NCBI GenBank assembly: GCA_010672585.1
Contig: JAAHGF010000008.1
Span: forward strand, 169,717-233,716
Direction of reading: 5' to 3'
Length of the DNA: 64,000 nt
From: Okeania sp. SIO1I7
GTDB lineage: Bacteria; Cyanobacteriota; Cyanobacteriia; Cyanobacteriales; Microcoleaceae
The notes beneath the pieces are model-generated. The model was not told the origin of the DNA, did no database searches, and saw nothing but the letters and a program-made list of their open reading frames with translations. Shown here piece by piece: positions 51,283 through 58,868 of this stretch (its first letter is position 1; the number at the start of each line of letters is the position of its first letter). The translations under genes were made by a program, and so were the position numbers.

Positions 51283-52974
51283 ATGACTGCAGAAGTTTGG
51301 ACATTTATACTCGTGATCATTTCCTTTATGGGTTATCTGTACATTGGATGGCGATCGCGAGTCAAAGATAGTAAAGGTTTTTTCGTTGCTGACCAAGGTG
51401 TACCTGCCATTGCAAACGGTGCAGCTACCGCCGCCGACTGGATGTCTGCTGCCTCATTTATCTCCATGGCGGGATTAATTTCTTTTTTGGGTTATGATGG
51501 CTCCATTTATTTGATGGGATGGACTGGCGGTTATGTGTTGTTGGCACTACTACTAGCTCCATACCTGCGGAAGTTCGGCAAATATACAGTACCTGACTTC
51601 GTGGGCGATCGCTACTATTCCAATATTGCCCGCATTGTGGCTGTTATTGCTGCCATCTTCGTATCTATGACTTACGTTGCCGGGCAAATGCGGGGTGTTG
51701 GTATTGTTTTCAGTAGGTTTTTGCAAGTTGATATTGGCACTGGTGTAGTCATCGGTATGATTATTGTTGCCTTCTTCGCAATATTAGGAGGAATGAAAGG
51801 CATCACTTGGACTCAGGTCGCCCAGTATACTGTACTTATTGTTGCTTATCTAATTCCAGCTATTGCCATTGCGACAGTTATTACAGGCATTCCCATTCCC
51901 CAGTTTGCCTTTACCTTCAGCGATATTGTCGAAAAACTAAATCAGGTTCAGGTAGACTTGGGTTTCCAAGAATACAGCGCTGCCTTTACTAACAAAACCA
52001 TGCTGGATGTTTTGTTTATCACTATTGCGTTGATGGTGGGAACTGCTGGTTTACCCCATGTTATTGTTCGCTTCTACACGGTGCCTGATGTAAGAGCTGC
52101 GAGATATTCTGCTGGTTGGGCATTATTGTTTATTGCTATCTTGTATACAACTGCTCCTGCCTTAGCTACTTTTGCCCGATACAATTTAATAGATAGTTTG
52201 CACGACAAAACTGTGGAGGAAGTGCAACAGTTAGACTGGGCAACAAAGTGGGAAAAGACGGGTTTGTTAGAATTCACCGATAAAAATAATGACGGTCGCT
52301 TTCAACTCACTCCAGACAAAGAGAGTAATGAAATTACTATCGACCGGGATATTATTGTGCTTTCAACTCCAGAAGTAGCAAAACTTGCTCCTTGGGTAAT
52401 TGCATTAGTGGCAGCAGGAGGGTTAGCTGCTGCGTTGTCTACAGCATCTGGTTTATTATTGGTAATTTCCAGTTCCATTGCCCATGATGTTTACTACCGA
52501 ATGATCGATCCAGGAGCATCGGAGTCGCGACGGTTAATGGTAGGGCGAATCATGGTAGGGTTTGCTATTGCCATTGCTGGTTATTTTGGGGTGAACCCAC
52601 CAGGGTTTGTTGCTCAGGTTGTGGCGTTTGCTTTTGGTTTAGCTGCTGCTAGTTTTTTCCCGGTGATTATTTTGGGTGTGTTTGACAAGCGCACTAACCG
52701 GGAAGGAGCGATCGCTGGTATGGTATCAGGTTTATTGTTTACTACTATCTATATTATTGGTGTCAAATTTGCGGGAATGCCGACATGGTTTTTCGGCGTG
52801 TCTGCTGAAGGTATTGGCACTGTGGGAATGGTGCTGAATTTAATCGTGACTTGGGTGGTATCTCGGATGACACCTCCTCCACCATTGGAAATACAAGAGA
52901 TGGTAGAAGATTTGCGATCGCCTTTAGCAGCTCCTGTTGCTATTAAGGATATTGGAGAGGAAGAGTTGGATTAA
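51283..52974 (+). CDS. Sodium:solute symporter (SSS family, ActP/VC_2705-like)
   Basis: 563 residues with ~13 helices. SSS hallmarks: DSKGFFVADQGVPAIANGAA, TAADWMSAASFISMAGLISF, RKFGKYTVPDFVGDRYY, GGMKGITWTQVAQY, AGGLAAALSTASGLLLVISS, and a WLKIGxVVSR-type end. VC_2705-type members with DUF4212 partners are thought to take up small monocarboxylates such as acetate with Na+. A near-identical paralogue without a small subunit is at 54878; a charged loop at ~330-370 (DKNNDGRFQLTPDKESNE) resembles an EF-hand (DxNxDGxxxxxxxE) in both. Confidence 0.93.
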   Translation: MTAEVWTFILVIISFMGYLYIGWRSRVKDSKGFFVADQGVPAIANGAATAADWMSAASFISMAGLISFLGYDGSIYLMGWTGGYVLLALLLAPYLRKFGKYTVPDFVGDRYYSNIARIVAVIAAIFVSMTYVAGQMRGVGIVFSRFLQVDIGTGVVIGMIIVAFFAILGGMKGITWTQVAQYTVLIVAYLIPAIAIATVITGIPIPQFAFTFSDIVEKLNQVQVDLGFQEYSAAFTNKTMLDVLFITIALMVGTAGLPHVIVRFYTVPDVRAARYSAGWALLFIAILYTTAPALATFARYNLIDSLHDKTVEEVQQLDWATKWEKTGLLEFTDKNNDGRFQLTPDKESNEITIDRDIIVLSTPEVAKLAPWVIALVAAGGLAAALSTASGLLLVISSSIAHDVYYRMIDPGASESRRLMVGRIMVGFAIAIAGYFGVNPPGFVAQVVAFAFGLAAASFFPVIILGVFDKRTNREGAIAGMVSGLLFTTIYIIGVKFAGMPTWFFGVSAEGIGTVGMVLNLIVTWVVSRMTPPPPLEIQEMVEDLRSPLAAPVAIKDIGEEELD

Positions 52975-54877: not shown

Positions 54878-56623
54878 ATGTTTATTCCCTCTTCCCTCTT
54901 CCTTCTTCCCTCTTCCTTCTTCCTTCTTCCTTCTTCCACAGAAATTTGGACATTTATCTTCGTAACAATTTCCTTAATGCTTTACCTATACATCGGGTGG
55001 CGATCGCGAGTCCAAGATAGCAAAGGCTTTTTTGTTGCCGATCGAGGTGTACCTGCAATTGCTAATGGTGCTGCCACAGCAGCGGACTTTATGTCTGCGG
55101 TTTCATTTATTTCTATAGCAGGAGCAGTTTCAATTTTAGGCTATGATGGTTCTTATTATGTAATAGCAGGAACAGGAGGTTATGTACTCTTGGGTTTGCT
55201 GCTTGCTCCATATCTGCGAAAGTTCGGGAAATATACTTTGCCAGATTTTATAGGCGATCGCTACTACTCTAATATTGCTCGCATTGTTGCTGTTATTGCT
55301 GCCCTCATTATCTCCATAACTTTTGTTGTCGGACAAATGCGGGGTGTAGGTATTGTCTTCAGTCGGTTTTTGCAAGTCCCCATTGAAGTTGGCGTTGTCA
55401 TCGGCATGATTATAGTTGCCTTCTTCGCTATATTAGGAGGAATGAAAGGTATTACTTGGACTCAGGTTGCTCAATACTTTATACTTATTGTTGCTTATTT
55501 AATACCAGCTATTGCCATTTGTAATATTCTGACAAATATTCCGGTTCCAGAATTAGCTTTTACTTTTAGCGATCTTATAGAAAAACTGAATCAAGTTCAG
55601 GTTGACTTAGGTTTTCCAGAATATACTGCTGCCTTCACCCAAAAAACTATGCTAGATGTTCTATTCATCACTATTTCCGGAATGGTAGGTCTTGCTAGTT
55701 TACCCCACGTTATCGTTCGTTTCTATACTGTACCTAATGTGACAGCAGCTAGATATTCTGTAGCTTGGGCATTATTGTTTGTTGCCATTTTTTCGACAAC
55801 TGTTCCTGCTTTAGCTGCTTCTGCACGATACAACTTAATTGATAGTTTACACAACAAAACTGTGGAGGAAGTGCAACAGTTAGACTGGGCAACAAAGTGG
55901 CAAAATACAGGTTTGTTAGAATTCACCGATAAAAATAACGACGGTCGTTTGCAATTGACCCCAGACGCAGAAAATAATGAAATCATTCTTGACCCGGATA
56001 TTATTACTCTCTCTACACCAGAAGTAGCTAAACTCGCTCCTTGGGTAATTGCATTCGTGGCAGCAGGAGGATTAGCTGCTGCTTTGTCTACAGCATCGGG
56101 TTTGTTATTAGTGATTTCCAGCGCCATTGCTCACGATGTTTATTACCGCCTCATTAACCCAGAAGCATCAGAGTCACAAAGATTAATACTAGGTAGAATA
56201 ATGGTAGTATTGGCGATCGCTATTGCTGGTTATTTCGGCATCAACCCCCCCGGTTTTGTGATTGAGATAGCAACTTTGGGAGTTGGTGTCGGTGCTGGTA
56301 CTTTTTTTCCAGCAATTATTTTGGGAGTGTTTGATCAGCGCACTAACCGGGAAGGAGCGATCGCTGGTATGGTAGTTGGTTTGGTATTTACAAGTATCTA
56401 TATTATTGGTGTAAGATTCTATGGAATGCCAACATGGTTTTTGGGGTTGTCTGATCAGGGTATCGGTACAGTGGGAATGTTATTGAATTTTGTTGTGACT
56501 TTGGTCGTGTCTCGAATGACAGCACCTCCACCATTGGAAATACAAGAGATGGTCGAGGAGTTGCGATCGCCTTTAGCAGTTCCTGTTGCTATTAGGGATA
56601 TTGGGGAGGAAGAGTTGGATTAA
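54878..56623 (+). CDS. Second SSS symporter paralogue with repeat-derived N-terminus
   Basis: 581 residues; from residue ~21 (TEIWTFIFVTISLMLYLYIG) it is closely similar to the transporter at 51283, including TAADFMSAVSFISIAGAVSI, GGMKGITWTQVAQYF, LSTASGLLLVISSAIAHDVY, the EF-hand-like DKNNDGRLQLTPDAENNE and the identical DIGEEELD end. The start MFIPSSLFLLPSSFFLLPSS is the translation of a CTTCCTTCTTCC repeat (54888-54937) replacing the original MTAE start. No DUF4212 gene precedes it. It could be expressed from ATG 54878 or be a tandem duplicate under decay; the body has no lesions. Confidence 0.82.
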   Translation: MFIPSSLFLLPSSFFLLPSSTEIWTFIFVTISLMLYLYIGWRSRVQDSKGFFVADRGVPAIANGAATAADFMSAVSFISIAGAVSILGYDGSYYVIAGTGGYVLLGLLLAPYLRKFGKYTLPDFIGDRYYSNIARIVAVIAALIISITFVVGQMRGVGIVFSRFLQVPIEVGVVIGMIIVAFFAILGGMKGITWTQVAQYFILIVAYLIPAIAICNILTNIPVPELAFTFSDLIEKLNQVQVDLGFPEYTAAFTQKTMLDVLFITISGMVGLASLPHVIVRFYTVPNVTAARYSVAWALLFVAIFSTTVPALAASARYNLIDSLHNKTVEEVQQLDWATKWQNTGLLEFTDKNNDGRLQLTPDAENNEIILDPDIITLSTPEVAKLAPWVIAFVAAGGLAAALSTASGLLLVISSAIAHDVYYRLINPEASESQRLILGRIMVVLAIAIAGYFGINPPGFVIEIATLGVGVGAGTFFPAIILGVFDQRTNREGAIAGMVVGLVFTSIYIIGVRFYGMPTWFLGLSDQGIGTVGMLLNFVVTLVVSRMTAPPPLEIQEMVEELRSPLAVPVAIRDIGEEELD

Positions 56624-57060: not shown

Positions 57061-57149
57061 ACATAAATATTACTTAGGTATATCTACCCATAAAATTAGG
57101 GTAGTTTTACCCTAGATATCTATACCTATAAAGGAGTATATAAAGGGTT

Positions 57150-57695
57150 AAGTAAATCTAATTAGATAGGTCAAGAGATAATTAGGCAATCCTAAGATAT
57201 CTAAGTAAATCTAATTAGACAGGTCAACAGCTAATTGACAATCTTTAATATATAATTAAAAAAATCTAATTATATTGGCCAAGAGCTAATTAGACAAAGC
57301 TAAGATGTCTAAGTAAATCTAATTAGACAAGTCAACAGCTAATTGACAATCCTTAAGATATAATTAAGTAAATCTAATTAGCTCTTGACCGATCTAATTA
57401 GACAAAGCTAAGACGTCTAAGTAAATCTAGCTAGACAAGTCAACAGCTAATTAAACAATCCCATAAGATATGATTCAGTAAATCTAGTTAGATTTGGTCA
57501 AGAACTAATTAGAAAAACCTAAGCATATTTAAGTAAATATAATTAGATTAGGTCAATATCTAATTAGACAATGCTAAGATATAATTCAGTAAATCTAATT
57601 AGAACAGTCAAGAGTTAATTAGACAAAGCTCAAATATCTAAGTAAATCTAATTAGAACAGTCAAGAGCTAATTAGACAAAGCTAAGTATATCCAC
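57150..57695. repeat. Ten-unit ~52-bp array rich in CTAATTAG palindromes
   Basis: Units start with AAATCTAATTAGA near 57154, 57205, 57262, 57313, 57367, 57422, 57478, 57533, 57588 and 57641. A typical unit is AAATCTAATTAGACAAGTCA then AGAGCTAATTAGACAAAGCT then AAGATATCTAAGT. Most units carry two CTAATTAG (or close) palindromes 18-20 bp apart. It ends ~100 bp before the EFE-like gene. Lines 57062-57150 hold an AGGGTAGTTTTACCCTA hairpin. Confidence 0.88.
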
Positions 57696-57800: not shown

Positions 57801-58868
57801 ATGACTATGAAAACATCTACTACTATAACCTTTGAAACATTTGATATCCGTGCAGCCAAGAACCTTAAAGAGCAACGAGAGTTAGGAGAAAGAATTGTCG
57901 CTGCATTGCAGAGAGACTCACTAATTCAAATCAAAAAAAATTATCAAGAGGATTTACTAACTGCACAAGCACTCCTGCAAAACAGAAAGTTTAATCAACT
58001 ACCACAAGATGAAAAAATTAAATTTGTAAGCGATACGACTTACACCGGGTATGTGTTCTCTGGTGAGGAGAAAAAAGGAGGTCAGTACGACCAAGTTGAG
58101 GTCTACACCGTGTTCCCACACTTTAATCAAGACGACGAACGCGTCAAAACACTTCGTCTCCCTTGCCACGGTGAAGCACTCTACCCCTCAGTAGACTACA
58201 AAAATGCCATTGAATCTTACATGAAAGCCACTGGCAATATGTGCGATCGACTGATAGAAATAATCGGTTTAGGACTAGGACTAGAGCCAAACCATTACCT
58301 CTCAAAAATGGTTCGCGACGGATTTCATCACGCCAGGGTATTACGCTTTAAGAGCCAAAAAGAAGCAGGAGGTGTATCCAATGGGATATCTGCTCACTCT
58401 GACTATGGCTTTCTGGTCGCTGCTTCCCAAGATGATGTTGGTGGATTATGGGTTCGACCGATTCCAAATGGTGAAAAGAGGGGAAGAAATTACCTAGAAG
58501 AAGAAACCACCATTGGAGCTTATCACAATCAACCAGGCTGGGCGTTTGTCACCCCAATGCCATGTGTCTGGACAGTATTTGTGGGCGACATGATGGAACT
58601 TGCTACAAACAGAAAGCTAAAAGCCAATATCCACAAGGTAATTCTCAATAAGGAAAAGGAGCGATTTGCCATTGCTTACTTCCACGAACCCAAATTCAAC
58701 CAGACCTTCGAGGCTGTAAACTCGAAAGGGAAAAAGAAGGAAATAGTCTATGGCAAGCACCTAACCAATATGTATTGCAAAGCCTATCCTAACAGAAGCA
58801 CAACAAAAAGAATTCAATCCGAAGAACTTTGTCAAAATATAGATAGACTGCCAAAAATTAGCCTATAA
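57801..58868 (+). CDS. 2-oxoglutarate/Fe(II) oxygenase, ethylene-forming-enzyme-like
   Basis: 355 residues, colinear with bacterial 2-oxoglutarate-dependent ethylene/succinate-forming enzyme as I recall it: TYTGYVFSGEE, LPCHGEALYPS, DGFHHARVLRF, ISAHSDYGFLVAASQDDVGG, GWAFVTPMPCVWTVFVGDMM, ERFAIAYFHEPKF, YGKHLTNMY. Fe(II) ligands are His199, Asp201 and His278, with the same 79-residue His-His spacing as the Pseudomonas enzyme (189/268); 2-oxoglutarate Arg is Arg288. Arg179 and Tyr202 match Arg171 and Tyr192 of that enzyme. Differences: KK at 91-92 where that enzyme has V-T (85-86), and Lys327 at the Arg316 position. It could form ethylene, hydroxylate arginine or another substrate. The DNA looks less AT-rich than neighbours, hinting at transfer. 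No partner gene. Confidence 0.85.
   Translation: MTMKTSTTITFETFDIRAAKNLKEQRELGERIVAALQRDSLIQIKKNYQEDLLTAQALLQNRKFNQLPQDEKIKFVSDTTYTGYVFSGEEKKGGQYDQVEVYTVFPHFNQDDERVKTLRLPCHGEALYPSVDYKNAIESYMKATGNMCDRLIEIIGLGLGLEPNHYLSKMVRDGFHHARVLRFKSQKEAGGVSNGISAHSDYGFLVAASQDDVGGLWVRPIPNGEKRGRNYLEEETTIGAYHNQPGWAFVTPMPCVWTVFVGDMMELATNRKLKANIHKVILNKEKERFAIAYFHEPKFNQTFEAVNSKGKKKEIVYGKHLTNMYCKAYPNRSTTKRIQSEELCQNIDRLPKISL

Follow-up and report, generated by a model that had tools for sequence, protein, structure and literature searches.

The gene and its active site

In a 64,000-nucleotide stretch of the marine cyanobacterium Okeania sp. SIO1I7 (contig JAAHGF010000008.1, positions 169,717 to 233,716; hereafter the window), we examined a gene for a putative Fe(II)- and 2-oxoglutarate (2OG)-dependent oxygenase resembling ethylene-forming enzyme (EFE). 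The open reading frame (ORF) is intact, with a full-length translation, and the nearest solved protein is the Pseudomonas enzyme, PsEFE (phmmer E 6.3e-81, 275 bits, 40.8% identity). The Pfam models 2OG-FeII_Oxy and DIOX_N both score above cut-off, and the overall fold is closest to that of EFE. The features needed for the argument are, in window positions:

57801..58868, + strand: EFE-like Fe(II)/2OG oxygenase gene, ATG start, 355 aa (from the ORF list, phmmer, Pfam and the ratio of nonsynonymous to synonymous substitution rates, dN/dS)
58071..58076, + strand: codons of Lys91-Lys92, at PsEFE Val85-Thr86 in the arginine-binding lid; the same in the relatives L001, L002 and L003 introduced below
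58395..58403, + strand: codons of His199-Ser200-Asp201, with the iron ligands of the HxD motif
58632..58634, + strand: codon of His278, the third iron ligand
58662..58664, + strand: codon of Arg288, at PsEFE Arg277, which binds the C5 carboxylate of 2OG (PMC11025135)
58773..58784, + strand: codons of Tyr325, Cys326, Lys327 and Ala328, at PsEFE F314, M315, R316 and C317 on the arginine side

The first-pass annotation had picked out an HxD...H triad (His199, Asp201, His278, spacing 79) and the blocks ERFAIAYFHEP, HHARVLRF and SDYGFLVAASQDDVGG, all of which are present in the translation of 57801-58868. The equivalences with PsEFE that it proposed are borne out by our alignment, whose PsEFE numbering was checked on H189, D191, H268, E84-V85-T86 and R316: H189, D191, H268, R171, Y192 and F283 correspond to H199, D201, H278, R179, Y202 and F294, while K91-K92 stand at V85-T86 and K327 at R316, as it had claimed. 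R277 aligns with R288. It had missed that A87G, F314Y and C317A accompany the changes it named, and that the 2OG/Fe contacts of the published list are all unchanged.

That list comprises the 23 PsEFE ligand contacts of Cui et al. (PMC9101411), of which 17 are retained in the window protein. The six changes, three in the lid (V85K, T86K, A87G) and three in the C-terminal helix (F314Y, R316K, C317A), all lie on the arginine side and recur identically in the three relatives; the net charge over the listed contacts is +2, compared with 0 in PsEFE. The 2-His-1-Asp iron site (PsEFE H189, D191, H268) is present, as are the 2OG anchors R277 and R171 (window R288 and R179), the hydrophobic 2OG chamber (L173, F175, V196, A198, L206, A279, A281 and F283, with V196 replaced by Ile in L002 and L003) and the long beta-11 loop with E215 (window E225), which aligns there without gaps. 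The L-arginine site E84/T86/R316 is not matched, since E84 is kept and the other two are T86K and R316K. Among all positions examined, the window protein, 41% identical to PsEFE (P. savastanoi PK2; 5V2Y, 6VP4), also carries P93V, C280I and F310L, and positions 93, 87 and 280 vary in canonical EFEs too. At 17 2OG/Fe positions that we chose from the papers, 16 residues are identical, against 40.8% overall (hypergeometric P 4e-6, a descriptive value only, as functional sites are conserved anyway). By the alignment, the iron and 2OG parts of the EFE fold are kept while the lid and the C-terminal helix have changed together, and identically in the four carriers.

Distribution, phylogeny and selection

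A contig scan, which reaches close relatives only, found three: Okeania SIO2B3 (L001, 99%), Nostocales HT-58-2 (L002, 90%) and Okeania SIO3B5 (L003, 90%), which with the window make up the four carriers of the Lys-Lys pair that we found. In whole-genome searches of overlapping samples (E limit 1e-20 for the phylum, 1e-15 for the others), matches were seen in 2 of 386 genomes of the phylum sample (1 of window type), 3 of 61 of the family (all of window type, and 3 of the 5 genus members), 5 of 388 of the order (3 of window type), 7 of 217 of the HT-58-2 family (1 of window type) and 1 of 27 of the family of genome G603 (canonical type). Other phyla were covered only through phage, plasmid and viral collections. 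Neither the contig scan nor the whole-genome searches showed a match between 41% and 90% identity to the window protein. Canonical EFEs (known from Nostoc, Scytonema and Microcoleus, PMC9101411; here L005, L008, L019-L023) were found in seven cyanobacterial genomes; they share with the window protein its phylum and its 2OG chamber, but are only 36-39% identical to it, keep T86, R316 and C317, and retain 21-23 of the 23 contacts in all seven cases. As canonical EFEs thus also occur in cyanobacteria, the Lys-Lys type is a separate lineage.

The four carriers cluster together at 100/100 and are set off by a long branch (2.2-2.5). The first-pass annotation had named placement with generic IPNS-like oxygenases as fatal to its proposal, and the carriers do not fall there: against outgroups they group with the EFEs at 100/100. 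All three free trees place them beside PsEFE, within the canonical EFEs, at 95/92 (with L009 and L014-L016), 97/97 (without L009) and 95/77 (with outgroups L039-L043), the fungal EFE being absent. Of 200 bootstrap trees, 0% and 4% had a branch separating the canonical EFEs from the rest; a tree that held them together was not rejected (approximately unbiased test, p-AU 0.051 and 0.30, with long branches and no fungal EFE), and the outgroups L014-L016 or L039-L043 left the branch point unsettled. Bit scores involving the fungal EFE Pd1 (Penicillium digitatum; 9EIR, 9EIS) fit a deeper or a fast-evolving branch equally (PsEFE-Pd1 406, window-PsEFE 275, window-Pd1 229). The free trees lean towards fast evolution rather than deep branching. 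Were the lineage to branch off below the known EFEs, the chamber that fragments 2OG would be older than the arginine site, contrary to published work in which both reactions are ascribed to the first EFE.

In all six pairs of the four carriers dN/dS is 0.05-0.14, and the carriers evolve under purifying selection.

One EFE-like protein used in the trees deserves a separate remark. L009 (10004-11128, Streptomyces clavuligerus plasmid pF1D35B) aligns a Pro with the first iron histidine and a His with Tyr192, and is unlikely to be a conventional iron enzyme.

The co-substrate

The first-pass annotation had left a choice between a divergent ethylene former and an EFE-like oxygenase with a new substrate, a reading that is supported in part. 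We favor the interpretation, with a probability of roughly 0.56, that the gene encodes an EFE-fold Fe(II)/2OG oxygenase whose co-substrate pocket has been rebuilt and which no longer has L-arginine as its natural partner. Fe(II) would bind 2OG and O2 as in EFE, and the place of arginine would be taken by a different compound, most probably an amino acid or a small acid, with its carboxylate held by Lys327 and Tyr202 and a charge suited to a contact shell that has two more positive charges than that of PsEFE. Oxidation of the partner would be accompanied by formation of succinate and CO2, and given the right partner some ethylene or 3-hydroxypropionate (3HP) may be released, because the 2OG-fragmenting chamber is intact. 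Under a strict definition of EFE as an L-arginine-using enzyme one tested feature failed, yet the protein may work like an EFE.

Published work bears on this interpretation from two sides. Substitutions of E84 and T86 are described as crucial for ethylene formation, and the key interactions are said to include those of R316 and residues 84-86 (PMC11025135). The reconstructed protein Node 385 carries Lys85 and Lys86 (Chatterjee et al., 2025, PMC12329707) and so shares with the window protein a Lys-Lys lid together with an EFE-type 2OG site; R316K and C317A are not reported for it in the text of that paper. At high enzyme, Node 385 gave 33 nmol ethylene, 17 (standard deviation 10) pyrroline-5-carboxylate (P5C), 150 succinate and 35 3HP, compared with 1210, 350, 300 and 10 nmol for PK2 EFE; at low enzyme ethylene was 1.5 versus 570 nmol, and the yield was at most 3% of that of PsEFE (PMC12329707). 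In those authors' view Lys86 would clash with L-Arg. PaIPNS, Anc357 and Anc317, which have Lys316 among many other changes, are given there as forming no detectable P5C.

A number of points weigh against our interpretation. Node 385 is a reconstruction and not the window protein, and its tabulated assays were made with L-Arg only, so its low activity leaves room for another partner. At 13 arginine/lid positions, chosen from the papers like the 2OG/Fe set, 5 residues are identical, no fewer than overall identity predicts (P 0.55); by this count the arginine side is changed no more than average and is merely without the protection seen on the 2OG side. Retained on that side are E84, D91, Y306, M313 and Y318, and several of the retained residues Glu84, Arg171, Asp191, Tyr192, Tyr306 and Tyr318 also serve L-Arg in PsEFE, while Lys327 could still bind a carboxylate. 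The predicted model has a confidence score (pLDDT) below 50 at the lid and the C-terminal end, so pocket geometry gives the argument no support. Finally, by the ORF lists the window, L002 and L003 settings have no neighbour gene in common, and context therefore names no substrate.

One alternative is a true L-arginine-dependent EFE with a divergent working site, in which Lys327 would stand in for Arg316, Glu90 and Tyr202 would hold the amino acid and the lid lysines would point away. We consider this possible but unlikely. T86K and V85K occur together with R316K, Node 385 with its lysine pair is nearly inactive on L-Arg (PMC12329707), and T86 and R316 are retained in every one of the seven canonical cyanobacterial EFEs; the EFEs of Microcoleus, Scytonema and Nostoc that are proven ethylene formers were drawn from the range of 60-95% identity to PsEFE (PMC9101411). 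Alternatively, 2OG could be fragmented without arginine, a lid lysine occupying the guanidinium site and 2OG alone yielding ethylene, 3HP or succinate. The gene is under purifying selection and its product retains the chamber linked to fragmentation, Node 385 made the highest 3HP in the table (35 versus 10 nmol for PK2), and the authors raise 3HP as a primordial function, as a remote possibility (PMC12329707); against this, Node 385 at 200 uM consumed little of the 2OG, with about 1800 of the 2000 nmol remaining (PMC12329707), and we rate arginine-free turnover as rather improbable.

That the protein is a generic IPNS-family oxygenase merely resembling EFE is very unlikely. PaIPNS (6JYV) and its family share with it the superfamily fold, the triad and often Lys316, which is found in PaIPNS and in 3 of 5 plasmid-borne IPNS-family relatives (L039-L043; Arg in 1, Asp in 1), a set that we picked as 5 of 19 records, two from one species. 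These rows have Y175, T196, L198 and S279 in 5/5 and P281 in 4/5, whereas the window protein has the EFE chamber residues F, V, A, A and A; it also retains E215 of the long loop, scores 66 bits to PaIPNS against 275 to PsEFE, and groups with the EFEs as described above. Plant ACC oxidase, at 38 bits over residues 246-329 against the same 275, was rejected as an identity. A decaying, functionless gene would suit the patchy presence (3 of 5 genus genomes, 1 of 217 in the HT-58-2 family), but with no stop inside the match in any of the four carriers, the low dN/dS, and the triad and listed 2OG contacts intact, it is hardly credible.

Node 384 has Leu160, Ala164 and Phe195 at PsEFE Phe159, Thr163 and Leu194 (PMC12329707). 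The corresponding residues of the window protein are Leu, Val and Phe, although 4 of the 7 canonical rows likewise have Leu at 159. We infer that what stands behind Nodes 384 and 385 is the Okeania lineage; against this, the active site remains like that of PsEFE in Nodes 3 and 5, which come from a run rooted with PaIPNS (PMC12329707). That study used reconstructed proteins along with PaIPNS and Din11, two natural proteins that are distant relatives (PMC12329707), and in the literature, including searches combining EFE with Okeania, we found no description of an extant Lys-Lys EFE lineage. According to a 2023 review (PMC10467617), it was still uncertain why EFE, unlike other Fe(II)/2OG oxygenases, makes ethylene. 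A natural enzyme with an EFE chamber and a different partner pocket could allow the contributions of chamber and arginine to be told apart; it bears on the question of a bifunctional first EFE and could help to trace the evolution of ethylene formation. We offer as a tentative and rather unlikely thought that this may be an extant lineage making ethylene or 3HP from 2OG with a non-arginine co-substrate or none, in phototrophs with several ethylene-receptor-like domains.

Mobility and surroundings of the gene

The synonymous distance between the window and HT-58-2 is 0.39 for the EFE-like gene and 2.9 for CoxA, and between the window and SIO3B5 it is 0.46 and 0.20. These distances, with CoxA as a single reference gene whose HT-58-2 match (L034) holds one in-frame TAG, indicate horizontal transfer of the EFE-like gene. 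When the window, L002 and L003 settings are compared, their DNA is similar only up to the ORF ends, except for scattered repeats in L003; SIO2B3 has the same flanks as the window. The window ORF list has no same-strand ORF near enough to 57801..58868 to suggest an operon. The gene would seem to work alone, travelling among cyanobacteria as a single cargo ORF.

In HT-58-2, nifD is split into residues 1-435 at 4972995-4974314 and 429-466 at 4900832-4900945, and the cuts carry GGACTACTCCG and GGATTACTCCG, with one mismatch between the two. The interrupting element of 72,070 bp (CP019636.1, about 4900927-4972997) holds the EFE-like gene, 2 kb inside one element end and adjoining an ORF that resembles a recombinase but matches the Pfam integrase model only below cut-off. 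The HT-58-2 gene-cluster paper enters the two sides of the element as two nif clusters (PMC8073705), which look like one cluster split by the nifD element; HT-58-2 is not named in the relevant passages of a survey of nifD-type elements (PMC4874684). A cytochrome P450 on such an element has been published (PMC1079853), and an oxygenase would be a further cargo type.

Other clues from context were pursued and set aside. A guanidine link was rejected, as the guanidine-I riboswitch exceeded the cut-off in none of six genomes (at most 150 candidates scored per genome); HT-58-2 has one weak match below cut-off. Phage carriage was likewise rejected, as viral contigs yielded no relative; a single phage record gave a match of 24% identity that spanned 74% of the query, and one plasmid record at E 1e-15 is a Streptomyces relative (28.5%). 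The genome itself encodes six ETR1_N (ethylene-receptor N-terminal) domains on contigs C33, C17, C15 and C35, five of them with a Cys-x3-His pattern, which we take to have a copper role. ETR1_N matches occur in 292 of 388 order genomes (289 over cut-off), and both non-carrier genus genomes have at least three such domains; the receptors are therefore ordinary and were dropped as a functional clue.

Directly upstream of the gene lies a repeat that we do not take as functional:

57148..57692, no strand: AT-rich tandem array, 108-bp unit, 4.9 copies

Similar repeats stand upstream of the EFE-like gene in SIO2B3. The number of promoter-like sites was at the shuffled mean (8 versus 8.7), and that of terminator-like sites exceeded the mean slightly (4 versus 2.1, standard deviation 1.5), with none of the four on the strand of the EFE-like gene. 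The window has two Rfam matches at gathering score, both to group II intron models, and a group II intron match lies at 321-400. Two neighbouring sodium:solute symporter genes (51283-52974 and 54878-56623) are likely a duplication; in SIO2B3, the counterpart of each gene is about 80% identical in DNA to the other member of the window pair.
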